Positions 15,605-27,685 of a stretch of 64,000 bases of DNA are shown here, piece by piece. The translations under genes were made by a program, and so were the position numbers. Location: positions 1 through 64,000 of the forward strand of contig PHAA01000013.1 of NCBI GenBank assembly GCA_002840245.1, read 5' to 3'. The number at the start of each line of letters is the position of its first letter. Positions within the stretch are counted from its first letter, which is position 1. A model generated the notes under the pieces. It did no database searches, was not told the DNA's origin, and worked only from the letters and a program-made list of their open reading frames with translations. This stretch comes from Firmicutes bacterium HGW-Firmicutes-15 (GTDB lineage Bacteria; Bacillota; Syntrophomonadia; Syntrophomonadales; Syntrophomonadaceae).

Positions 15605-15695
15605 ATAATTGCTCCCGTATTAATAATGTAATGTTTTAAGCGAGCCGCCTTTACTTCTTTATGTTGGGGAGTTCATTTTTAGGTTATTAGAAACA

Positions 15696-15735
15696 AAACA
15701 GGCGGGTGATGGAAAAAACCATCATCCACCTGTTT
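15696..15735. terminator. Bidirectional terminator between DUF1015 and CoA-transferase genes
   Basis: A 17-nt arm (15696-15712) pairs with 15719-15735 with two mismatches around an A6 loop. It ends with TTT on the plus side and with TTTGTTTC on the minus side. It serves two convergent genes. Confidence 0.75.
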
Positions 15736-15790
15736 ATTGCTTATCAGAGTCCTTTAAGCAAGCTGGTGGCTATAGCTGGATATAATAGAA

Positions 15791-17137
15791 TTAAGCTCTC
15801 AATTTATTAGTTTTAACCCAGATATTATTTTTCTCTGCCTCTTTGATCAGTTCATCGCGTAGGTCGGGATGAGCTATACTAATGAGGGCTTCGGCTCTTT
15901 CCCAAGTACTCTTGGCCTTTAACAGCACTATGCCATACTCGGTGACTACATAGGCATTGAGGCTGCGGGGTACAGTCACAGTCGCACCCGGGGTCAGGGT
16001 AGGCATGATACGGGATTTTAAGTTGCCCTCTTTGTCCTTGAAGGTGGAGGTGAGGCAGATCAGTCCCTTGGCGCCTTTGGATTTGTAGGAGCCATAAATA
16101 TAATCCAGCTGGCCGCCGGTTCCGGAGATATGCCTTACTCCCGAGGATTCCGAAGCCACCTGGCCATAGAGATCGACCTCGACCGCGTTATTGATACAGA
16201 TCATATTGTCTTGCAGGCATATGATGTCGGGATCATTGGTGTAATCCACCGGGAAGCTGGCGCAGACCGGATTGCTGTCCAAGAAGTTATAAAGCTTGTT
16301 GGTGCCCATGGCAAAGGTATAAACCATTTTACCTTTATCCAATTGTTTGCGAAGTCCAGTAATACGTCCTGCTTCATACATATCAACAAATGAATCCACC
16401 AGCATCTCGGTGTGAACCCCCAGATCTTTTAGATCGGATTGGGCGATCATGGCACCCACTGCATTCGGCATGGCGCCTATCCCCAACTGCAGACAGTCCC
16501 CGTCCTTGATCTGCTCCAAGATGATGCTGGCAATTTTTTTGTCGACATCGGATATGGGCAGTTCGGGCAGATTTATCAACTGTTTGTTGTCGCCCTCTAC
16601 GAAATAGTCGATTTCCGATACGTGCAAGGTCTCGCGCAGTCCTCCCAGACACCGGGGGACCGATTCATTTATTTCGGCGATTACTATTTTCGAAGCATCA
16701 CAAAAAGCATGGGTAAATGAATTGGAGGTGCCTAGGTTTACGAATCCGTGCTTATCTGGGGGCGTTACTTTGATGAGGGCTACGTCGGGCTGGACATAAC
16801 CGCGATCATAGAAACTGGGCACTTCATGATAGGTTATAGAGATATAGTTGCACATGCCCTTGTCATGCAGCTTGCGGCTGGCGCCGCTGAAATGATAGTC
16901 GTTATAGATGAAGTGTTTTCTTTCTGGATCATTTACTACCGTTTGGGGTGGAAAAGGACAGGTGGTGGTTCTTATATTCACCCCTTCTAGTTCATCTGAC
17001 CTTTTGGCCAGGGCCGCATCTAAAACATGGGAGTTCATCACGAATTCACCATAATGGACCAGATCGCCTGATTTAACTACTTTGACTGCTTCATCAGCAG
17101 AGACGAATTTGCTTTTGTAATTATCCATATAACTCAT
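15791..17137 (-). CDS. Acetyl-CoA hydrolase/transferase family CoA-transferase
   Basis: The protein has 448 residues; the start ATG at 17135-17137 lies behind GAAGGAGCG. The family runs acetyl-CoA hydrolase N- and C-terminal domains. The catalytic glutamate is in GVHTEMLVDSFVDMYEAG and is followed by the usual GTGGQLDYIYG oxyanion region. Length and motifs fit the 4-hydroxybutyrate or butyrate:acetate CoA-transferase branch, which exchanges CoA between acyl-CoA and acetate. Beside beta-oxidation genes it plausibly activates butyrate or recycles CoA. It lies about 400 nt downstream of a sigma-54 promoter and a dedicated EBP gene, with a small ORF between. The substrate pair is inferred. Confidence 0.92.
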   Translation of the reverse strand: MSYMDNYKSKFVSADEAVKVVKSGDLVHYGEFVMNSHVLDAALAKRSDELEGVNIRTTTCPFPPQTVVNDPERKHFIYNDYHFSGASRKLHDKGMCNYISITYHEVPSFYDRGYVQPDVALIKVTPPDKHGFVNLGTSNSFTHAFCDASKIVIAEINESVPRCLGGLRETLHVSEIDYFVEGDNKQLINLPELPISDVDKKIASIILEQIKDGDCLQLGIGAMPNAVGAMIAQSDLKDLGVHTEMLVDSFVDMYEAGRITGLRKQLDKGKMVYTFAMGTNKLYNFLDSNPVCASFPVDYTNDPDIICLQDNMICINNAVEVDLYGQVASESSGVRHISGTGGQLDYIYGSYKSKGAKGLICLTSTFKDKEGNLKSRIMPTLTPGATVTVPRSLNAYVVTEYGIVLLKAKSTWERAEALISIAHPDLRDELIKEAEKNNIWVKTNKLRA

Positions 17138-17286
17138 ATTTATCGCTCCTTCATTTTAAAATAGGGAGTGTTAGGTATGCTTAAATATTTCTGTATCCAC
17201 TGGGAAGTCATGGCTGGGTTGCCGCCATATTTTCTTCCTGGTCCTCTGTTAAAGAAAGACACAGTTTGGAGAACTACCCAAGTTAT

Positions 17287-17403
17287 TCAAGCTTGTCCAA
17301 AAAGAGTTTTAACTAAACCTAGCATTATGTCACAGGACACGGAGAGTTTATAGCCGTTGTCCGGGGTGAAGCTATCAACCGCAGTAAAAAACGGTTTGTT
17401 CAT
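17287..17403 (-). CDS. Small ORF (38 aa) between sigma-54 promoter and CoA-transferase
   Basis: The frame is MNKPFFTAVDSFTPD..., 38 codons from ATG 17401-17403 to TGA at 17287. Its upstream AGAGGAGGTTTA...ACGATG matches the initiation region of the crotonase gene at 23404, so it sits exactly where crotonase sits in the paralogous block. No homology is recognised. It may be a real small protein, a leader peptide, or a relic of the replaced operon. Confidence 0.35.
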   Translation of the reverse strand: MNKPFFTAVDSFTPDNGYKLSVSCDIMLGLVKTLFGQA

Positions 17404-17546
17404 CGTAACTACCGTAAACCTCCTCTCATATTTGAATAGTATTTAACCTTGTGCGGAGAACAATATCACCTCCTTGGATTAAAGATAGGAAAGGTGATTT
17501 GCCATTATATGCAAATCGCTCCTTGTATAGCACAGATTTTCTTCCT
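17404..17546 (-). promoter_or_regulatory. 5' leader with perfect Shine-Dalgarno, block 1
   Basis: In RNA sense the leader carries AAGGAGGTGA (17466-17475), a full anti-16S match about 70 nt after the predicted start. ATCACCT (17492-17498) can pair with AGGTGAT (17465-17471) and hide that site. The frame after it stops within about eight codons. The same AAGGAGGTGA occurs at the equivalent place in block 2 (23460-23469). Confidence 0.45.
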
Positions 17547-17556
17547 AATTTATTAC

Positions 17557-17573
17557 AGCAATATTCATGCCAA
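17557..17573 (-). promoter_or_regulatory. Sigma-54 (-24/-12) promoter, block 1
   Basis: On the minus strand TTGGCATGAATATTGCT fits the -24/-12 consensus TGGCAY-N5-TTGCW with exact GG and GC placement. It lies just downstream of the first EBP gene and drives the small ORF and CoA-transferase. Only two positions differ from the block 2 promoter, and those lie in the spacer. Confidence 0.85.
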
Positions 17574-17605
17574 TTATAAGGAAAGTAGTTAAAGTAGGGC
17601 GAAAA

Positions 17606-17619
17606 GGCGGTATATATGG
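17606..17619 (-). promoter_or_regulatory. Putative activator site, block 1 (diverged)
   Basis: GGCGGTATATATGG (plus-strand reading) lies 33 bp upstream of the -24 box. The palindrome of block 2 (23595-23628) starts 32 bp from its own -24 box and begins GGGCGGTATATCCA. The partner arm here is degenerate. Confidence 0.4.
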
Positions 17620-17788
17620 TTTTAGTACATGCCACTACAAGGTGACTTTGATACAAAATACATATAATATTTCCTAAATTGCTTAGAAGCGAATTGAGAA
17701 ATCGTTATAGAATAGGCAGAATGCCCAATGGATCTCTTCTCAAAATAGGAGGCAGAATTCCCGAAACCGACAGCTCAATGATGGAATA

Positions 17789-20251
17789 CTATTCCAAGCC
17801 ATATTTAGATAGTTTACGGTATAAGGCAGAGCTGTGTATTCCTAATGATTTTGCTGCTTGAACCTTGTGGCCAGAGGTTTTTGCCAGAGCCTTAATAATA
17901 ATTTGCTTTTCCAGGGTTTCAATAGTCTCTGTCAGGTTGATATTCTCTTCATCCGGACTGTTAACCTCAGAATTGGCATCTTCTAGAAGTGAGGGGAAAT
18001 GCTTAATGCCTAGATAATCCTCGTGGTTCATATCGGCCAGATTAATGGCCCTTTCAAGCAGATTTTCGAGTTCACGTACATTGCCCGGCCATGAGTAATT
18101 TTGTAGTAGTTTTCGTACCTGTTCGGAAATGCCAGTGATAGCCGTTTTTAGATTACAGTTAATCCTATCGATTAAAGCTTCGGCGATGAGGAGCACATCA
18201 ATCTGCCTTTTTCTCAGGGGGGGAATGCTCAGTCTTACTACATTCAAGCGGTAATAGAGATCCTGGCGGAATGTCTGGTTGTCGACCATTTCCTCTAAAT
18301 TACGGTTGGTGGCGGCTATGACTCTTACATTGACGGAAATAGGTGCGGTTCCCCCGATCCGTTCTACAGTTCTTTCTTGCAATACTGTGAGCATTTTGGT
18401 CTGCATAGCTAGAGGCATATCTCCTATTTCATCCAGGAAAATGGTTCCTCCGCAGGCTAGTTCAAATTTGCCCTGCTTACCACCTTTTCGGGCACCCGTA
18501 AAGGATCCTTCTTCGTAGCCAAACAATTCGGAATCTAACAGGGTGTCGGGTAAAGCAGCGCAGTTTATCCTGATGAAAGGACCGGAGTTTCTCTTGCTGG
18601 CATTATGAATGGCTTGAGCAAATAACTCTTTGCCTGTGCCACTTTCGCCGGTTATTAGGAGTGTGCTGGTGGTATGGGAAACATGTTCAGCCATTGTTTT
18701 AATCGCTAAAAACTCGGTGTCCTGACCGATAAGGTCGGGAAACCGCCATTTGGCTCTATAAAAATTGCGCACTTCTTCTTTATAAATGTTTAATTCTTTC
18801 TCAGTATCCTGTAATTTTTTAACCAGAATCTTAGCGCCAGACATATCCAGGAATAGGCTTTTCTCTATTGCACCTACGATATCGCCGTCTTTGATAATAG
18901 GTAGGCGGGTCACGATAGTTTCTCGTCCTTTGATCATGAAAATATCAGCTTTGTCAATACGCTTAGTTTTCAAGATCATAGGGAGTTCGGAACTGGGAGT
19001 TATATCAAGTATATATTTACCTACGACATCCTCTTTCTTCATCTCCAGGATGTCAAGATAGGTTTGATTCATCGTGGTAATATAACCATCTTTATCCACA
19101 ATAACATAAACCATATAAGGGCTTTCAATCAGCCCTTCTAGTATGGAAGCAAATTCTTTCTCCGTCTCTTGCATTTTTTTCATTAGAATTTTGGCTCCGG
19201 ACATATCCAGGAAAAGGCTTTTACCAATGGCTCCAATAATCTCACCGTCTTTGACAATAGGTAATCGTGTTACGATTGTGTCACGCCCTTTTATGGGCCA
19301 TATGTCAGCTTTGTCTATGCGGCCAGTTCTAAGAACCTCAGGAAGTTCAGAAGTCGGAGTGATATCCAGTATGTGTTTCCCAACTACATCTTCCTTCTTA
19401 AACCCCAGAATATCCAAGTAAGTCTGATTCATGGCAGTAATATAACCTTCTTTATCAACAATAACATATACCATGTAGGGGCTTTCGATTAGACCTTCCA
19501 GGATGGTGCTGAATTCTTTTTCGGTTTCCTGTAGCTTTTGCATTAAAATCTTAGCTCCGGACATATCCAGAAAAAGACTTTTGGCAATGGCGCCTACTAT
19601 TTGCCCGTTTTTAATAATGGGTATTCGAGTTACGATCATCTCGTGTCCTTTGATAGACCAGATTTCCGCACTGTCAATCCGACCCGTTTTAAGTATTTCA
19701 ATAAGACCGGAATTTGGTATTATATCAAGTACGTATTTTCCGATAACATCTTCCTTTTTCATTTCCATGATGTCTAGGTAGGTTTGGTTCATTGCCGTAA
19801 TGAAGCCATTGCTATCAACTGACGCATAAAGCATATATGGACTCTCTACTAGGGCTTCAAAAAGGGCAGTGAATTCTTTTTCTCTTTCCTGCAGTCTTTT
19901 CATAAAAATCTTGGCTCCGGACATGTCCAGAGAAAGACTTTGCCCAATCGCTCCTATTATCTTGCCATCCTTTATAATGGGTACACGGGTAACGATAGTA
20001 TCTTGATCTTTAATAGGCCAAATATCGGCTTTGTCAACGCGGCCAGTTTCAAGTACTTCTGGAAGTTGTGAATGGGGAAGAATTTCAAGAACGTGCTTGC
20101 CAATTACATCAGCTTTCGTTAATTCTAGGGAATCAAGAAAGGTTTGGTTCATGAGGGTTATATGGCCTTCCTTATTAACGATCACTAAGGCCATATAAGG
20201 ACTTTCAATTAGTGCTTCAAAAGTTGCATTGAATTCGTAGTCAGAAACCAT
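17789..20251 (-). CDS. Sigma-54-dependent activator with four tandem PAS domains (EBP 1)
   Basis: The protein has 820 residues from the ATG at 20249-20251, behind AAAGGAGGTCG. Four PAS units of about 120 residues run from about 5 to 485; each opens E(S)PYM and ends LDMSGAKI(L/F). In DNA this is a 360-nt periodicity. The AAA+ sigma-54 domain follows: Walker A GESGTGKE, loop GSFTGA (Ser instead of the common Ala), LDEIGDMPLAMQ, and YYRLNVVRL. The C-terminus is a Fis-type HTH (KVQAAKSLGIHSSALYRKL). No membrane segment is present, so a cytosolic ligand is likely, perhaps an acyl-CoA or redox cue. It lies just upstream of a sigma-54 promoter feeding the CoA-transferase gene. Confidence 0.93.
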   Translation of the reverse strand: MVSDYEFNATFEALIESPYMALVIVNKEGHITLMNQTFLDSLELTKADVIGKHVLEILPHSQLPEVLETGRVDKADIWPIKDQDTIVTRVPIIKDGKIIGAIGQSLSLDMSGAKIFMKRLQEREKEFTALFEALVESPYMLYASVDSNGFITAMNQTYLDIMEMKKEDVIGKYVLDIIPNSGLIEILKTGRIDSAEIWSIKGHEMIVTRIPIIKNGQIVGAIAKSLFLDMSGAKILMQKLQETEKEFSTILEGLIESPYMVYVIVDKEGYITAMNQTYLDILGFKKEDVVGKHILDITPTSELPEVLRTGRIDKADIWPIKGRDTIVTRLPIVKDGEIIGAIGKSLFLDMSGAKILMKKMQETEKEFASILEGLIESPYMVYVIVDKDGYITTMNQTYLDILEMKKEDVVGKYILDITPSSELPMILKTKRIDKADIFMIKGRETIVTRLPIIKDGDIVGAIEKSLFLDMSGAKILVKKLQDTEKELNIYKEEVRNFYRAKWRFPDLIGQDTEFLAIKTMAEHVSHTTSTLLITGESGTGKELFAQAIHNASKRNSGPFIRINCAALPDTLLDSELFGYEEGSFTGARKGGKQGKFELACGGTIFLDEIGDMPLAMQTKMLTVLQERTVERIGGTAPISVNVRVIAATNRNLEEMVDNQTFRQDLYYRLNVVRLSIPPLRKRQIDVLLIAEALIDRINCNLKTAITGISEQVRKLLQNYSWPGNVRELENLLERAINLADMNHEDYLGIKHFPSLLEDANSEVNSPDEENINLTETIETLEKQIIIKALAKTSGHKVQAAKSLGIHSSALYRKLSKYGLE

Positions 20252-20308
20252 CGAAATTTGAACGACCTCCTTTAGCGCACCTTATATTGTAAGTATTAAT
20301 AATATTTT

Positions 20309-20336
20309 ATCATATCATTTCCGATTGCTATTGTAA
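20309..20336 (-). promoter_or_regulatory. Sigma-A-type promoter of EBP 1
   Basis: On the minus strand TTACAA (20331-20336) is followed after 16 nt by TATGAT (20309-20314). The same two hexamers with the same spacing precede EBP 2 (26328-26355), so the activator genes themselves use the housekeeping sigma factor. Confidence 0.55.
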
Positions 20337-20391
20337 GAATTAGTACAAAGTGTTTGGAAATGTATAAGCTTCGTGCTCTGTGCGTATACAC

Positions 20392-20413
20392 TGCCAGGCG
20401 GCGGTAGAAAAGT
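20392..20413 (+). pseudogene. 22-nt remnant of copZ left by duplication
   Basis: These 22 bases are identical to copZ codons at 26627-26648 (encoding part of CQAAVEKS). They stand upstream of EBP 1 just as copZ stands upstream of EBP 2, but about 240 bp closer. It is a junction scar, not a gene. Confidence 0.75.
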
Positions 20414-20417
20414 AGGT

Positions 20418-20441
20418 GGGTGATGGCACTAGCCATCACCC
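20418..20441 (-). terminator. Terminator of the crotonase-thiolase-hbd operon
   Basis: GGGTGATGGC (20418-20427), loop ACTA, GCCATCACCC (20432-20441) form a perfect 10-bp stem about 46 bp after the hbd stop. On the minus strand a CTACTTTTCT stretch follows. Confidence 0.65.
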
Positions 20442-20486
20442 ATCTTCAACCTCTTATATTTTCAATTACCATCCATTTCATTAATG

Positions 20487-21341
20487 CTATTTTTTATAAT
20501 CAAAGAAGCCTTCTCCGGTCTTAATGCCCAGTTTACCAGCACGCACCATTTTAACCAGAAGTGGGCAAGGACGATATTTAGGATCACCAAATTCTCTATG
20601 CAGGGTCTGCATAACAGCTAGGACTATATCCAATCCAATCATATCCGATAAAGCAAGCGGACCCATGGGATGTCCAGCTCCAAATTTCATGGAAGTATCA
20701 ACATCGACAGGATTAGCTACGCCTTCCATAACTGCATATATACCCTCGTTTAGCATTGGAACTAAAAGCCGGTTAACAACGAAACCGGGAGCTTCATTAA
20801 TTTCAACCGGAGCTTTGCCCATATCTTCGGTTAGTTTCTTAATAAGATCATAGGTATCTTGGCTGGTAGAAGATCCCTTGATTATTTCAACTAACTTCAT
20901 GGCCGGTACTGGGTTGAAAAAATGCATGCCTATCATTTTGTCTGCTCTATTAGTGGCTGCACCGATTTCGGTAATACTGAGAGCTGAAGTATTCGAAGCT
21001 AGGATACACTCGGGTTTGCAAATGGCATCTAATTCTTTAAAAATAGTTTTCTTTATTTCCATGATTTCAACTGCGGCTTCGATTACCAGATCAACATCTT
21101 TTAAAGCGGTCATGTCAATAGTACCTGTGATTCTTCCTAATATCTCGGCTTTTTCGTCTTCAGCCAGTTTGCCTTTGGAAACCAGCTTATCAAGATTCTT
21201 AGTAATTCCAGCGATACCTTTGTCAACAAATTCCTGTTTGATATCTCGTAAAACTACGTTAATTCCCTTTTGAGCAGCAACCTGAACGATACCAGCACCC
21301 ATCGTGCCGGCTCCAAGAACTGCAATTTTATTAATTGCCAA
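20487..21341 (-). CDS. hbd: 3-hydroxybutyryl-CoA dehydrogenase
   Basis: The protein has 284 residues from a TTG at 21339-21341, behind AAGGAGG with 8-nt spacing; a longer frame would add 13 residues ahead of the Rossmann fold. The NAD site is [16 protein letters not shown]. The catalytic His is in [15 protein letters not shown], preceded by [10 protein letters not shown]. The C-terminal domain shows PGFVVNRLL and [16 protein letters not shown]. It oxidises 3-hydroxybutyryl-CoA to acetoacetyl-CoA with NAD in butyrate beta-oxidation, or the reverse. It is the last gene of a three-gene operon. Confidence 0.95.
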
Positions 21342-21389
21342 TAGAAAATCCTCCTTGTATTTAGTAATACGTTCTTCCATTAGGTGTGT

Positions 21390-22595
21390 TTAGATATCTC
21401 TGGTCCACAAGGAAGCCATCGCCGGACCGCCGCCCACACAGAGAGAAGCGCCACCCAGGGTCAATCCCAGGCGCTCCATTTCATAATACATAGATACGAT
21501 TATGCGCAGGGCCGTAGCTCCCACCGGGTGACCCAGGCCAATTCCGGAACCATTGTGATTAACCTTGGAAAGATCCATTTCAATGCCGAAGTCTTCCTTT
21601 AGCATTCTGCCCACCCCGATAAATTGCGCAGCAAATGCTTCGTTGATTTCCCAGTAATCAATATCTTCATATTTTAAGCCAGCCTGTTTAAGAGCCTTGG
21701 GAATTGCTACTGCAGGGCCAACTCCCATAATGGTTGGATCAACACCCTCAGCTACAATATTGATCATCTTCAACAGGGGTTTAATTCCGAGTTCTAAAGC
21801 CTTTTCTTTGGACATTACGATAACGGCTGCAGCAGCGTCGTTAATACCGGAAGCATTGGCAGCTGTGACAACCCCTTCTTTTTTGAAAGCTGGAGGCAAT
21901 TTGGCCATCGATTCAACACTGGCATCGGGAATCATATGTTCGTCATTTTCGAAAAGTTTTACACCCTTCTTGGATTTAAGCTCCACTGGAACGATTTCCC
22001 GTTTAAATATTCCGTTTTGCATAGCAGCAGTGGCTTTTTGATGGCTGGCCAGCGCTAAGGCATCGCATTCCTCGCGGGTAATGCCATACTTGGCGGCTAC
22101 GTTTTCAGCGGTAAGGCCCATGTGACCAGGAACCAGTTTGTCAACCAGTCCGTCGTAAAGCAAGGAATCTTCAATGCTTCCGGGGCCCATGCGATATCCC
22201 ATTCTAGCTTTATCCATCATATAAGGTGCATTGGTCATACTTTCCGCGCCTATTACCAGACCGATGTCGATCTTGCCCAGCGCAATATGATCGCATATTA
22301 TTTCCAGGGCTCTCATGCCAGATGCGCAGTTCTGATTAACGTTACAGGCGTTACTTCTAACCGGAAGTCCCAATGCCATAGCCACCTGTCGGGAAGGCAG
22401 CGATCCTTGAAAATGAGGATAAATCTGGCCCAGAACCAGTTCATCAATGGCATCGGCGGGGATACCGGCTCTTTTAATAGCTTCTTTGCCTGCGGTTATG
22501 GCCAGTTCTTTGACCGACACGTCTTTCAAGGTTCCCATAAACCTGGCTATTGGGGTTCTACATGCACTTACAATTACTACTTCTTTGGTTTCCAC
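21390..22595 (-). CDS. thlA: Acetyl-CoA acetyltransferase (thiolase)
   Basis: The protein has 401 residues, starting at METKEVVIVSACRTPIARF. The nucleophilic Cys is in VNQNCASGMRAL. The second-site residues are His in GSGIGLGHPVGATALR and Cys in GASLCVGGGPA, so all three catalytic positions are intact. It cleaves acetoacetyl-CoA with CoA into two acetyl-CoA. It lies 26 bp after crotonase and about 48 bp before hbd, and shares their sigma-54 promoter. Confidence 0.95.
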   Translation of the reverse strand: METKEVVIVSACRTPIARFMGTLKDVSVKELAITAGKEAIKRAGIPADAIDELVLGQIYPHFQGSLPSRQVAMALGLPVRSNACNVNQNCASGMRALEIICDHIALGKIDIGLVIGAESMTNAPYMMDKARMGYRMGPGSIEDSLLYDGLVDKLVPGHMGLTAENVAAKYGITREECDALALASHQKATAAMQNGIFKREIVPVELKSKKGVKLFENDEHMIPDASVESMAKLPPAFKKEGVVTAANASGINDAAAAVIVMSKEKALELGIKPLLKMINIVAEGVDPTIMGVGPAVAIPKALKQAGLKYEDIDYWEINEAFAAQFIGVGRMLKEDFGIEMDLSKVNHNGSGIGLGHPVGATALRIIVSMYYEMERLGLTLGGASLCVGGGPAMASLWTRDI

Positions 22596-22621
22596 TATAT
22601 ATACCTCCTCATAAATCTATA

Positions 22622-23404
22622 TTATTTGCATTTAAAATCAGCTTTCCGTTTCTCAACGAATGCCGCCATACCTTCTTTCTGATCTTCAGTCGCAAAGCAC
22701 AGTCCGAATAAGTCAGCTTCAATCGCCATAGCGGTATCAATATCTGCCTGCATACCTCGGGTTACCTGATTCTTACTTAATCGAACTGCCAAGGGGGCTT
22801 TGCCGGATATTATCTTAGCCAGCTTTTTTGCTTCAGCCATTAATGACTCCGCAGGATATACATGATTTACGAGACCTACTCGATAGGCTTCATCGGCATT
22901 AATATTAATAGCAGAATAGATTAATTCTTTAGCTCTCCCTTCACCAATTAGGCGGGGTAATCGCTGGGTTCCACCATAACCGGGAGTGATCCCTAAACCT
23001 ACCTCAGGTTGTCCAAACAGAGCCTTATCAGAAGCCAGCCTTATATCGCAAGCCATGGAGAGTTCACAGCCGCCGCCCAGCGCGAAGCCATTAACCGCTG
23101 CAATAACAGGTTTGTCCATTGTTTCGATAAGCCTAAAAACTTCTTGACCTAGGATAGCGAAGGCGCGCGCTTGCATGGCCGGAAGTTTTTGCATGTAGGC
23201 TATATCAGCGCCAGCCACAAAGGCTTTGTTACCTACCCCGGTAATGATTAACACATCTACATTCGGATCTTCAGCAATTGCCAGCACGGCATTTTTTATA
23301 TCTAATAGGGTATCTGCATTAAGCGCATTAAGCGCATTAGGTCTATTGATAGATAGTAATGCTGTCCGGTCTTCTATTTCCAGTAATATGTTTTCATAAG
23401 CCAT
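22622..23404 (-). CDS. crt: Enoyl-CoA hydratase / crotonase
   Basis: The protein has 260 residues, starting MAYENILLEIEDRTALLSIN. The oxyanion-hole segments are KAFVAGADIAYM and NGFALGGGCELSMACDIR, with the catalytic Glu in GGGCELSM and the second Glu in FGQPEVGLGITPGYGGTQR. It hydrates crotonyl-CoA to 3-hydroxybutyryl-CoA. It is the first gene of the operon. The ribosome site GAGGAGGAGG ends 14 nt before ATG, unusually far, and a perfect AAGGAGGTGA lies further upstream in the leader. Confidence 0.95.
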   Translation of the reverse strand: MAYENILLEIEDRTALLSINRPNALNALNADTLLDIKNAVLAIAEDPNVDVLIITGVGNKAFVAGADIAYMQKLPAMQARAFAILGQEVFRLIETMDKPVIAAVNGFALGGGCELSMACDIRLASDKALFGQPEVGLGITPGYGGTQRLPRLIGEGRAKELIYSAININADEAYRVGLVNHVYPAESLMAEAKKLAKIISGKAPLAVRLSKNQVTRGMQADIDTAMAIEADLFGLCFATEDQKEGMAAFVEKRKADFKCK

Positions 23405-23546
23405 CGTTTTTAGTTAAACCTCCTCCTCTAGTAGATAAGTACTTATCTGATAATGATCCTCACCTCCTTAGATAACGGACTGCAAGCCGTTTTAGATTAT
23501 ATGCAGATCACTGGTAGAATAGTATATGGTTATATACAATGAATAG
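23405..23546 (-). promoter_or_regulatory. 5' leader with perfect Shine-Dalgarno, block 2
   Basis: The leader carries AAGGAGGTGA (23460-23469) about 66 nt after the predicted start, followed by a frame that stops after a few codons. Upstream is the AACGG/CCGTT hairpin, and between the two ribosome sites is the 16-nt palindrome AGATAAGTACTTATCT. The layout matches the block 1 leader. Confidence 0.45.
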
Positions 23547-23563
23547 AGCAAGATTCATGCCAA
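23547..23563 (-). promoter_or_regulatory. Sigma-54 (-24/-12) promoter, block 2
   Basis: On the minus strand TTGGCATGAATCTTGCT gives TGGCAT and TTGCT with exact sigma-54 spacing. It lies between EBP 2 and crotonase and would start a leader of about 130 nt. Confidence 0.88.
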
Positions 23564-23594
23564 CTATCAGAATATGGCGGTAATTAAGATGAAA

Positions 23595-23628
23595 GGGCGG
23601 TATATCCAGTTTGTTGGATATACCGCCC
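23595..23628. promoter_or_regulatory. 14-bp perfect palindrome, likely enhancer site for EBP
   Basis: GGGCGGTATATCCA (23595-23608), 6-nt spacer, TGGATATACCGCCC (23615-23628). Its centre is about 76 bp upstream of the predicted start, a usual distance for an EBP binding site. It could also terminate EBP 2 transcription, as it lies downstream of that gene. Confidence 0.65.
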
Positions 23629-23783
23629 CAAAGTGATTTGATGTAAGTAAATATACATTTTATTCAAAATAGGATAGATTCGAAATGATTGTCCCTTGTA
23701 AGGTTAGGATGATGCTGAATAGAAAGCACTTGCCCAAAATAGGAGACCGCTTTTCCAAAAAAGGAGACTTAATGCCCAGCAAA

Positions 23784-26249
23784 TTATTCTAACCCATACT
23801 TGGAGATTTTACGATATAATGCTGAGCTGTGAATCCCCAGCATCTTTGCGGTTTGTACCTTGTTCCCTGCGGTTTTTGCCAGAGCTTGAATTATCAATTG
23901 CTTTTCCAGGTTTTCCATGGCTTCGGGCATATTCATACTATTTACGCTTTGGGTTTGACTAACAGCGGAATCAGCCTCTTCAACCAATGAAGGGAAATGC
24001 TTAACAGTTAAATAATCTTCATGGTTCATATCAGCCAGATTCACGGCTCTTTCCAATAGATTCTCCAGTTCACGTATATTGCCCGGCCATGAATAATTTT
24101 GCAGCAGTTCACATGCCTGCTCGGATATGCCAATTATACAGGTTTTTAGATTCTTGTTAATCCTATACATCAAGTCATTGGTGATAAGTAGTACATCAGT
24201 CTGTCTATTTCGCAAAGGTGGAATACTTAGTCTTACTACATTTAAACGGTAATAGAGATCCTGGCGAAATTCCTGCTTACTGACCATTTCCTCCAAATTC
24301 CGGTTGGTGGCTGCTATGATCCTTACATTGACGAGGATAGGTATAGTTCCACCGATCCGTTCTACGGTTCGTTCCTGTAATATGGTGAGAATTTTTGTCT
24401 GCATAGCCAGTGGCATATCGCCGATTTCATCCAAGAAAATGGTGCCGCTTTGGGCCAATTCGAACTTACCCTTTTTGCCGCCTTTTCTAGCTCCGGTAAA
24501 GGCACCATCTTCATACCCAAACAACTCGGATTCCAGCAGGTTGTCTGGTAAAGCTGCACAGTTAATACGGATAAAGGGCCCGGATTTTCTTTGACTGTCA
24601 TTATGAATGGCCTGGGCAAACAGTTCTTTGCCGGTACCACTTTCACCAGTTATCAGCAGAGTACTGGTGGTATGGGATACATGTTGGGCCATTGATTTAA
24701 CTGTTAGGAATTCAGAACTATTACCGATCAGGTCAGAAAAATGCCATTTGGCTCGGTAAAATTTGCATATTTCATCTCTATAAACATTTAATTCTTTCTC
24801 GGTATCCTGAAGCTTTTTTACGAGGATCTTAGCGCCTGACATATCCAGGAAGAGGCTTTTGCCGATGGCACCCACAATTTCTCCGTCTTTGATAATGGGT
24901 AAGCGGGTTACAATGGTTTCACGTCCTTTTATTATATAAATATCCGCTTTATCAATCCGACCAGTTTTTAGGACTTCGGGAAGCTCGGAAGTTGGAGTTA
25001 TATCCAAGATATACTTTCCTATAACATCTTCCTTTTTCATTTCCAGAATATCTATATAGGTCTGGTTCATCGTTGTGATATAACCATCTTTATCTACGAT
25101 AACAAAAACCATATAAGGGCTTTCAATCAAGCCTTCCAGAATTAATGCAAACTCTTTTTCTGTCTCCTGCATTTTCTTCATCAGGATCTTAGCACCGGAC
25201 ATATCCAGGAAGAGACTCTTGCCAATGGCACCTACAATTTCATTATCTTTGATGATAGGTAATCTGGTTACGATGGTGTCGCGTCCTTTTATAGGCCATA
25301 TATCTGCCTTGTCAATGCGGCCGGTTTTTAATATTTCGGGAAGCTCTGAGGTAGGGGTTATGTCTAATATATATTTGCCAACTACATCTTCCTTGTTCAT
25401 TCCTAAGATATCTAGGTAAGTCTGATTCATAGCGGTAATATAGCCATCTTTGTCAACAATAACATAGACCATGTAGGGACTTTCGATTAGACCTTCCAGG
25501 ATCTTGGCAAAATCTTTTTCGGTTTCCCGAAGCTTTTGCATTAAAACTTTGGCCCCGGACATATCCAAGAAAAGACTTTTAGCAATGGCCCCAATTATTC
25601 GGCCGTTTTTTATGATGGGCAGCCGAGTTACGATCATCTCGTGCCCTTCTATGGACCAGATGTCTGCATTATCAATTCGGCCCGTCTTTAATACTTCAAT
25701 AAGTCCGCAATTGGGGGTTATTTCAAGTATATATTTGCCTATTACGTCTTCGATTTTAACTTTTAGGATGTCCAAGTAGGTCTGGTTCATTGCTGTAATG
25801 AAGCCATTGCTATCCACGGCAACATAGAGCATATAAGGACTTTCAACAAGGGCCTCAAAAAGGGTAGTGAATTCTTTTTCTCTTTCATGTAGTCTTTTCA
25901 TAAAAATCTTGGCTCCTGACATGTCCAGAGAAAGACTTTGCCCAATCGCTCCTATTATCTTGCCATCCTTAATAATAGGGAACCGAGTAACGATAGTGTC
26001 CTGGTCTTTTATTGGCCAAATATCGGCTTTGTCAACCCGGCCTGTCTTAAGTATCTCAGGAAGTTTGGAATGGGGAAGGATTTCAAGAACGTGTTTGCCC
26101 AATACATCATTTTTCGTTAATTCCAATGAATCTAGGAAGGTCTGATTCATAAGGGTTATATTGCCTTCCTTATTAACGATAACCAACGCCATATAAGGGC
26201 TTTCAATTAGCGCTTCGAAAGTTGCATTAAATTCGTAGTCGGTAACCAT
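23784..26249 (-). CDS. Sigma-54-dependent activator with four tandem PAS domains (EBP 2)
   Basis: The protein has 821 residues and is closely similar to EBP 1 along its whole length. Four PAS units of about 120 residues are followed by AAA+ (GESGTGKE, canonical GAFTGA loop, LDEIGDMPLAMQ) and a Fis-type HTH (KVQTAKMLGIHSSALYRKI). It sits directly upstream, on the same strand, of a sigma-54 promoter and the crotonase-thiolase-hbd operon, so it is the likely activator of butyrate beta-oxidation. The ligand is unknown. Variation between copies is higher in PAS 2 and the acidic linker before the HTH than elsewhere. Confidence 0.93.
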   Translation of the reverse strand: MVTDYEFNATFEALIESPYMALVIVNKEGNITLMNQTFLDSLELTKNDVLGKHVLEILPHSKLPEILKTGRVDKADIWPIKDQDTIVTRFPIIKDGKIIGAIGQSLSLDMSGAKIFMKRLHEREKEFTTLFEALVESPYMLYVAVDSNGFITAMNQTYLDILKVKIEDVIGKYILEITPNCGLIEVLKTGRIDNADIWSIEGHEMIVTRLPIIKNGRIIGAIAKSLFLDMSGAKVLMQKLRETEKDFAKILEGLIESPYMVYVIVDKDGYITAMNQTYLDILGMNKEDVVGKYILDITPTSELPEILKTGRIDKADIWPIKGRDTIVTRLPIIKDNEIVGAIGKSLFLDMSGAKILMKKMQETEKEFALILEGLIESPYMVFVIVDKDGYITTMNQTYIDILEMKKEDVIGKYILDITPTSELPEVLKTGRIDKADIYIIKGRETIVTRLPIIKDGEIVGAIGKSLFLDMSGAKILVKKLQDTEKELNVYRDEICKFYRAKWHFSDLIGNSSEFLTVKSMAQHVSHTTSTLLITGESGTGKELFAQAIHNDSQRKSGPFIRINCAALPDNLLESELFGYEDGAFTGARKGGKKGKFELAQSGTIFLDEIGDMPLAMQTKILTILQERTVERIGGTIPILVNVRIIAATNRNLEEMVSKQEFRQDLYYRLNVVRLSIPPLRNRQTDVLLITNDLMYRINKNLKTCIIGISEQACELLQNYSWPGNIRELENLLERAVNLADMNHEDYLTVKHFPSLVEEADSAVSQTQSVNSMNMPEAMENLEKQLIIQALAKTAGNKVQTAKMLGIHSSALYRKISKYGLE

Positions 26250-26581
26250 CGAAATTTGAATGACCTCCTTTAGGACTTGTTTTTCTAGAAGAAAAGAACC
26301 GATTATATTGTAAATTAGTATTATTTTATCATATCATTTCCGATTGTTATTGTAAGAATTAGTGCAAAGTGTAGAGATTCGGGTATTAACCTTTCTACAG
26401 TAACTTACATCAATCGTTAGGAAATATTATATTGAACATAATTTGGCTGTATTAAAATATCTGGGTATGAGAAAATAATGGTAAGTCTTGTTACGGAAAA
26501 AGTCTGAAGGATTGCTTGATACAGTTAAAACGTGGCAAGCCCTAAGTATACAACCAATTATTTTAAAAGGAGGTTTATTAT
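26250..26581. other. 332-bp divergent region between EBP 2 and copZ
   Basis: The left part holds the EBP 2 ribosome site and promoter. TTGAAC at 26432-26437 with TAAAAT 15 nt later could be the copZ promoter, and AAAAGGAGG lies just before the copZ ATG. No further gene or clear structure is seen. Confidence 0.4.
26328..26355 (-). promoter_or_regulatory. Sigma-A-type promoter of EBP 2
   Basis: On the minus strand TTACAA (26350-26355), 16-nt spacer, TATGAT (26328-26333), in a stretch nearly identical to the EBP 1 upstream region. Confidence 0.55.
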
Positions 26582-26791
26582 ATGCAGACTGAAAAAATAA
26601 AGATTTCAGGTATGTCCTGCGGACATTGCCAGGCGGCGGTAGAAAAGTCCATTAAGTCATTAAATGGTATAGTTGGCCTGGAAGTATTACTGAAAGAAGG
26701 TCAGGCTCAAGTATCCTTTGATGAAAGTAAAATTTCGCTCAAGGATATCCGGGCTAGCATTGAAGAGGCAGGCTATTCAGTAGACAATTAG
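26582..26791 (+). CDS. copZ: CopZ-like heavy-metal chaperone (HMA domain)
   Basis: The protein has 69 residues from ATG 26582 with AAAAGGAGG 8 nt upstream. It is a single ferredoxin-like HMA domain with the metal loop GMSCGHCQAAVEKS (CxxC). It binds Cu(I) or a similar ion and passes it to P-type ATPases. No ATPase gene is adjacent. Part of this gene has been copied to 20392-20413 in the block 1 duplication scar. Confidence 0.92.
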   Translation: MQTEKIKISGMSCGHCQAAVEKSIKSLNGIVGLEVLLKEGQAQVSFDESKISLKDIRASIEEAGYSVDN

Positions 26792-27563: not shown

Positions 27564-27626
27564 CACGAGAATAGAGAACGTTAGGCACGGATGTATCCGT
27601 AGTGAGAAAGTCATTGTAGTGAAAAT

Positions 27627-27662
27627 AACGCTTAGACAATAATTAATTATTGTCTAAGCGTT
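27627..27662. terminator. Bidirectional terminator (16-bp stem)
   Basis: AACGCTTAGACAATAA (27627-27642), loop TTAA, TTATTGTCTAAGCGTT (27647-27662). It separates the convergent MBL hydrolase and lysA. Confidence 0.8.
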
Positions 27663-27685
27663 AATATAATCCAGCTTATGTGCGA

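Follow-up and report, generated by a model that had tools for sequence, protein, structure and literature searches.

Very probable in-place tandem duplication of a sigma-54 activator gene with its operon, followed by complementary gene loss, in Firmicutes bacterium HGW-Firmicutes-15

We analyzed a window of 64,000 nt from Firmicutes bacterium HGW-Firmicutes-15 (GCA_002840245.1, contig PHAA01000013.1, positions 1-64,000) in which two operons, presumably serving beta-oxidation in a syntroph, each follow a gene for a sigma-54-dependent enhancer-binding protein (EBP). We found a repeated unit with its junction, scraps of the crt and thl genes in one of its copies, and a one-unit arrangement in a relative, which together point with high probability to an in-place tandem duplication of the full EBP-operon unit followed by complementary loss. 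On the minus strand, the order is EBP2, crt, thl, hbd and a terminator (block 2), then a 26-nt copZ scrap, EBP1, a leader, some 270 nt lacking any intact gene, the CoA-transferase gene (CoAT) and a second terminator (block 1). The opposite strand carries copZ beside the EBP2 end and a DUF1015 gene past the CoAT terminator (Table 1).

By comparing the window with itself, we could confirm the preliminary description of two collinear blocks on the same strand. Each runs from a copZ piece through an EBP promoter and the gene of a four-PAS sigma-54 activator to a -24/-12 promoter and a leader. The copies are 77.9% identical in DNA over 2887 aligned positions (17504-20353 vs 23496-26372), and 694 of 820 aligned amino acids are identical between EBP1 and EBP2. 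Homology also extends well beyond the EBP coding DNA. In the promoter region with the copZ piece, 104 of 114 aligned nt agree, with a score of 132 where the best of 300 shuffles reached 39; in the leader region, 235 of 336 agree, with a score of 170 against at most 45 in 300 shuffles. The block 2 operon terminator is followed by 5 nt and then by the copZ scrap, whose match to the intact copZ has an E-value of 1.9e-5 in the self-comparison. The collinear parts thus lie head to tail, with a terminator-to-copZ-scrap junction at 20413/20414. Because the scrap sits 5 nt past the terminator, the repeat unit of about 6.2 kb proposed earlier (20414-26648) fits, with its start within copZ and its end immediately behind the operon terminator. 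We judged an assembly artefact to be an unlikely source of the two blocks, the copies being only 78% alike. The 5' parts of the blocks (promoter and first PAS) are more alike than the remainder, by either constraint or gene conversion.

Then, we looked at the same locus in seven genomes of the genus, the window's own included. In the closest relative, Syntrophomonas sp. STD2_151 (G006), the flanks equal those of the window (90-96% amino acid identity in eight genes), and between them lie one EBP gene, placed between DUF1015 and copZ, the genes crt-thl-CoAT-hbd-bcd (bcd being the acyl-CoA dehydrogenase gene) and a single terminator, which both window operon terminators resemble. Combined, the two window blocks hold the G006 gene set minus bcd. 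G002 and G005 have one EBP gene between MBL and DUF1015, with thl as the only match among the operon genes tested, the G003 locus is broken by contig ends, and neither G001 nor G004 gave a match to EBP1 at E up to 1e-200. As the tandem reading predicted of relatives, an EBP gene thus stands at this same place wherever the locus is readable (G006, G002 and G005), and two blocks there were seen in the window's genome alone.

The preliminary description held that the target genes of one copy had been replaced. This was not supported, since block 1 retains scraps of crt and thl, and perhaps of bcd, around CoAT in the G006 order, which argues that the genes were lost by deletion and that CoAT was part of the original unit. 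Scrap significance was estimated with 500 dinucleotide shuffles per stretch, and none attained the score of either crt scrap. First, the score of crt scrap 1 is 106 against the window crt, 102 against the G006 crt and at most 60 against the 32 other loci compared (46 for C61 and 42 for C68, both in the same genome), a comparison that partly covers the crt paralogues of the genome. Its 32 differences from crt fall 13, 8 and 11 times on codon positions 1, 2 and 3, that is without codon-position bias, so that it looks like a neutrally drifting remnant; over the same stretch, the window and G006 crt genes differ at 16 sites, all of them third positions. Second, the thl end scrap with its intergenic DNA scores 77 to the G006 thl-CoAT junction, the next of the six thl ends compared being that of the window thl (56). 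The crt and thl scraps overlap at GGCGGC, as would be expected from a deletion between short repeats.

Replacement would mean that only the control block was duplicated in tandem and that a CoA-transferase gene from elsewhere then took the place of one copy's target genes. Consistent with it, the window CoAT falls in the clade of C68-type operons, apart from the G006 CoAT, and a comparison by eye shows its first 14 nt matching G006 and a stretch from about codon 9 onward matching C68; the body of CoAT may thus have been exchanged. However, the leader is separated from CoAT by crt and thl scraps, and the thl-CoAT junction is of the G006 kind, which implies that a CoAT stood there before the losses. 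As replacement is already contradicted on how the other target genes disappeared, we consider it very unlikely. A further feature was noticed in this region: the deletion apparently brought the leader 1 ribosome site directly in front of a crotonase-internal ATG, which creates a frame of 38 codons at 17287-17403 (minus strand) without the GGG of the crotonase loop.

Under duplication with complementary loss, an ancestral unit made of the EBP gene, crt-thl-CoAT-hbd-bcd and a terminator would have been copied at its own site into a head-to-tail pair, the breakpoints lying within copZ and immediately behind the terminator. Of the operon genes, crt, thl and hbd would then have survived in block 2 and only CoAT in block 1. 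CoAT and bcd would be missing from block 2 through loss, and crt, thl, hbd and bcd from block 1, where crt, thl and perhaps bcd left scraps. That the two copies lost different genes, as in duplication-degeneration-complementation but at the operon level, is seen from the block 1 scraps, the crt-thl-hbd set of block 2 and the full set of G006. Were both copies necessary? Against it speaks that, at E up to 0.001, the genome gives family matches to CoAT (14), thl (9), crt (17) and hbd (10); operons of the same enzymes are also found at C61 and C68. Purifying selection on both EBPs (dN/dS 0.06-0.09, and 0.079 between the two) speaks for retention. Given the gene redundancy, the split need not have been adaptive.

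Table 1. Features of the duplicated locus, from the copZ end to the CoAT end.
Feature	Position	Strand	Evidence or remark
copZ, intact copper chaperone-like gene	26582..26791	+	HMA domain 63.8 bits; duplicated unit starts within at 26648
EBP2 promoter region	26323..26355	-	32/33 identical to 20304-20336
EBP2, 821 aa	23784..26249	-	four PAS, AAA+ sigma-54 activator domain (GAFTGA), Fis-type helix-turn-helix (HTH)
Predicted upstream activator-like site, block 2	23753..23767	-	12/15
Predicted upstream activator-like site, block 2	23732..23746	-	13/15
Predicted upstream activator-like site, block 2	23662..23676	-	12/15
EBP2 terminator hairpin (probable)	23595..23628	-	-27.7 kcal/mol, z -7.75
-24/-12 promoter, block 2, TTGGCATGAATCTTGC	23548..23563	-	box pattern
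Transcript leader 2	23405..23547	-	similarity to leader 1
crt, short-chain enoyl-CoA hydratase	22622..23404	-	NF004475 398.8 bits, cut-off 394
thl, acetyl-CoA acyltransferase	21390..22595	-	TIGR01930 411.6 bits, cut-off 240.55
hbd, 3-hydroxybutyryl-CoA dehydrogenase	20487..21380	-	NF004474 439.8 bits, cut-off 408
Block 2 operon terminator	20419..20440	-	fold of 20406-20447 = -23.2 kcal/mol, z -6.1; resembles G006 operon terminator
copZ scrap, tandem junction 20413/20414	20388..20413	-	25/26 vs 26623-26648
EBP1 promoter region	20304..20336	-	match to EBP2 promoter region
EBP1, 820 aa	17789..20251	-	four PAS, AAA+ domain with GSFTGA, Fis-type HTH
Sole predicted upstream activator-like site, block 1	17738..17752	-	14/15
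Former EBP1 terminator position, 5' arm eroded	17585..17650	-	no stable hairpin, -6.8 kcal/mol, z -0.03
-24/-12 promoter, block 1, TTGGCATGAATATTGC	17558..17573	-	box pattern
Transcript leader 1	17407..17557	-	similarity to leader 2
crt scrap 1, codons about 95-133	17290..17406	-	85/117 vs crt
crt scrap 2, near crt 3' end	17221..17265	-	0/500 shuffles
thl 3' end scrap and thl-CoAT intergenic, as in G006	17143..17226	-	0/500 shuffles; coding part alone 1/500
CoAT, acetyl-CoA hydrolase/transferase family	15791..17137	-	best model butyryl-CoA:acetate CoA-transferase, 584.7 bits, under cut-off 674.8
bcd 3' end scrap (possible), AIATSLLKGL*	15741..15770	-	collinear with G006; alone 36/500 shuffles
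Block 1 operon terminator	15708..15727	-	fold of 15690-15735 = -24.3 kcal/mol, z -7.1

Several observations weigh against this history. First, no second genome with two blocks was found among the seven, the G003 locus being cut by contig ends. Second, neither the possible bcd scrap nor the scar behind hbd in block 2 (63 of 500 shuffles) is significant alone, which leaves the comparison as the sole basis for inferring that block 2 lost CoAT and bcd. Third, no simple history explains the synonymous distances (dS) from the window to G006: they are 0.33-0.37 in five outer flanking genes and 0.53-0.71 in MBL, DUF1015 and copZ, and reach 1.36 in crt, 2.1 in thl and saturation in CoAT, with only 0.39 in hbd. 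Among the EBPs, dS is 1.20 for EBP1-EBP2, 1.10 for EBP1-G006 and 0.79 for EBP2-G006. Fourth, in gene trees the window and G006 are sisters for crt and hbd but not for thl and CoAT: the window thl groups with the same-locus thl of G003 and with the G001 thl, the window CoAT groups with CoAT of C68-type operons, and the G006 thl and CoAT are placed elsewhere. Alleles have therefore been exchanged at the locus, and the G006 thl and CoAT (L031 9826-12412), within flanks 90-96% alike, are a candidate cassette exchange inside a conserved locus; a mosaic scan of CoAT and thl gave no clear inner breakpoint. Fifth, the EBP trees conflict over which EBP is sister to that of G006, with EBP1 joined to it in the C-terminal protein tree (89/82), EBP2 in the full DNA tree (89/91), and no resolution in the full protein tree. 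The duplication may have preceded or followed the split from G006, and the crt scraps favour neither order: where the window and G006 crt differ, the scraps agree with the window at 12 sites, with G006 at 9 and with neither at 2.

These distances would also suit an origin other than duplication in this lineage, in which one block, or the entire locus, was acquired from another Syntrophomonas by recombination, as a foreign allele of the locus. The dS to G006 rises from the outer flanks inwards to at least 0.8 in EBP, crt and thl, with hbd as the exception, and an approximately unbiased (AU) test weakly rejects EBP1-EBP2 sisterhood on DNA (p 0.035) but not on protein (p 0.106). In contrast, the near identity of the junction copZ scrap to the intact copZ beside block 2 is what in-place copying predicts, and similarity peaks in the promoter region and first PAS. 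A foreign origin of the blocks appears quite unlikely to us.

Regarding regulation, both elements of a predicted sigma-54 control, promoters and a repeated upstream motif, are present. Behind the 17 EBP genes, a strict pattern finds a -24/-12 box in 15 cases and a looser one in all 17. The phased motif TCTCCTATTTTGAGA, at a threshold of at least 11/15, was found in 17/17 EBP-downstream regions, where shuffling predicts 0.03 to 0.22 per region, frequently near -113, -184, -206 or -310 from the -24 box. One such site lies in block 1, three in block 2 and one at the G006 EBP. Since the motif was derived from the very 17 regions in which it was counted, this count is not independent. The exact 13-base form matches three times genome-wide (control 0), twice at EBP loci (block 1 and C61) and once inside an apparent coding sequence (C30), and the block 2 sites deviate from it. 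With one mismatch allowed, there are 15 matches, 4 at EBP loci, vs 8 in the control.

The blocks also differ in what stands behind the EBP gene. The GC-rich palindrome at 23595-23628, GGGCGGTATATCC...GGATATACCGCCC, was considered as an activator site, and we found this less likely than an EBP2 terminator. A hairpin followed by T-rich DNA is found behind EBP2, the G006 EBP and the C61 EBP (folded), as well as at G006_C1 and G027, the sequence varying while the fold stays. This strong hairpin behind EBP2, the G006 EBP and C61 probably marks an EBP terminator, even though this reading is weakened by an exact-arm scan that finds the kind in 5 of 17 regions and by a weak T-rich tail behind EBP2. 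In block 1 the hairpin is lost, and CoAT may therefore be transcribed from the EBP1 promoter too.

Both EBPs carry the sigma-54 activator domain (PF00158, 236-237 bits) with GESGTGKE, and a Fis-type HTH (PF02954, 46.8 and 52.8 bits). They missed the cut-offs of the named NCBIfam EBP groups PrdR (543/555 vs 795 bits), AtoC (335/352 vs 714) and PrpR (330/333 vs 499). Solved structures gave 35 sequences at E up to 1e-20, aligned from about residue 477 onward, and none of these matched the PAS part. In each EBP gene, the four PAS domains (18792-20171 and 24790-26169) repeat directly at a strict spacing of 360 nt and are 65-79% identical in DNA to the reference copy, a pattern suggestive of internal amplification. 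EBP1 has a GSFTGA loop, the other 22 of the 23 EBPs read having GAFTGA; GSFTGA is listed as an activation-permitting variant in a Clostridiales study and a Desulfovibrio study. The recognition helix, HSSALYRK(L/I)SKYGL, shows one L/I change between EBP1 and EBP2.

In the mechanism we propose, each EBP would be made from its own promoter, sense a signal via its PAS domains, bind TCTCCTATTTTGAGA sites and drive the -24/-12 promoter behind its own gene. Given their nearly identical recognition helices, both EBPs would probably act on both promoters, more strongly on block 2 with its three sites than on block 1 with one, and overlapping control is expected rather than two separate circuits. Alternatively, and compatibly with any history, the blocks could answer separate signals, CoA transfer (block 1) being regulated independently of crt-thl-hbd (block 2). 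Site number and terminator differ between the blocks, EBP1 alone has GSFTGA, and the AAA+ lid and HTH parts diverge more (nonsynonymous divergence pN 0.17) than the PAS parts (0.04-0.08); yet the recognition helix is nearly the same, the sites are of one type and the PAS domains are almost alike. We regard fully separate control as rather doubtful. Of the earlier claim of two paralogous activators for two steps of one pathway, the paralogous EBP pair thus stands, and separate control is left unproven by the near-identical helices, the shared site type and the C61 and C68 operons. In a further, unlikely arrangement, EBP1 (GSFTGA, one site, leaky terminator) would set CoA-transfer entry and EBP2 (GAFTGA, three sites) crt-thl-hbd, coupled by cross-binding and possibly mixed hexamers. 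If true, such a two-activator switch would let a syntroph tune fatty-acid activation and oxidation separately near thermodynamic limits.

An EBP at G026:C1:535514 is 70% identical to EBP2 and, guessing from its position, may be Swol_0456. The latter, a PAS/sigma-54 regulator of Syntrophomonas wolfei and one of three paralogues, is discussed among proteins exclusive to butyrate-grown cells, and the accessible part of that paper mentions no tandem pair, unlike the window (PMC4324140). In Clostridiales, crt-hbd-thl-bcd operons are known to be under sigma-54/EBP control, and CrbR has several upstream sites there; AhcR, XcgR and YctR are named in the same work. That system shares with the window an EBP, a sigma-54 promoter and a crt/hbd/thl/bcd-type operon, but it serves butyrate synthesis, whereas the window has two tandem EBP-operon units with partitioned genes (PMC6615313). 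The mamAB magnetosome operon likewise underwent whole-operon duplication with later loss and divergence; its copies lie 172 kb apart and no regulator is mentioned in the portion seen, in contrast to the window, where the copies are head to tail, include the regulator and show complementary loss (PMC6819731). Duplication and loss of exopolysaccharide operons have been surveyed across bacteria, with duplicates counted only when at least 10 kb apart and ascribed to horizontal transfer, not tandem duplication (PMC7112194). For the alternative nitrogenases of Azotobacter vinelandii, paralogous EBPs are likewise reported to work in one cell, with interacting control (PMC9542535). Among the matches listed in the literature on Syntrophomonas, duplicated operons and EBPs, which leaves subscription papers mostly outside coverage, we found no description of a regulator and operon duplicated together with complementary loss and readable scraps. 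The locus offers an unusually clear view of an operon after its tandem duplication together with the regulator. As the lost genes can still be read as scraps, the order of events is testable, and syntrophic fatty-acid oxidation gains two activators, a candidate binding site and a defined promoter pair.

A second tandem EBP pair, from another family (G045), was seen at L049 (9916-12062 and 13917-16057, 78% DNA identity), flanking an acyl-CoA dehydrogenase gene; its members are sisters in the EBP tree. The CopZ models score slightly under their cut-offs for copZ, and TIGR00003 slightly over. No Rfam family matched anywhere in the window at the gathering score. In both leaders a Shine-Dalgarno-like AAGGAGGTGA or near variant (17466-17475 and 23460-23469, minus strand), also found in G006, C61, G027 and others, lies well ahead of the ribosome site that belongs to the first gene, and no ATG follows it closely in the window; it may serve a leader peptide that starts at a rare codon, or be part of a different RNA element. 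Finally, the DNA between the MBL and decarboxylase genes contains 38 nt of perfect self-complementarity (27626-27663), perhaps a shared terminator.

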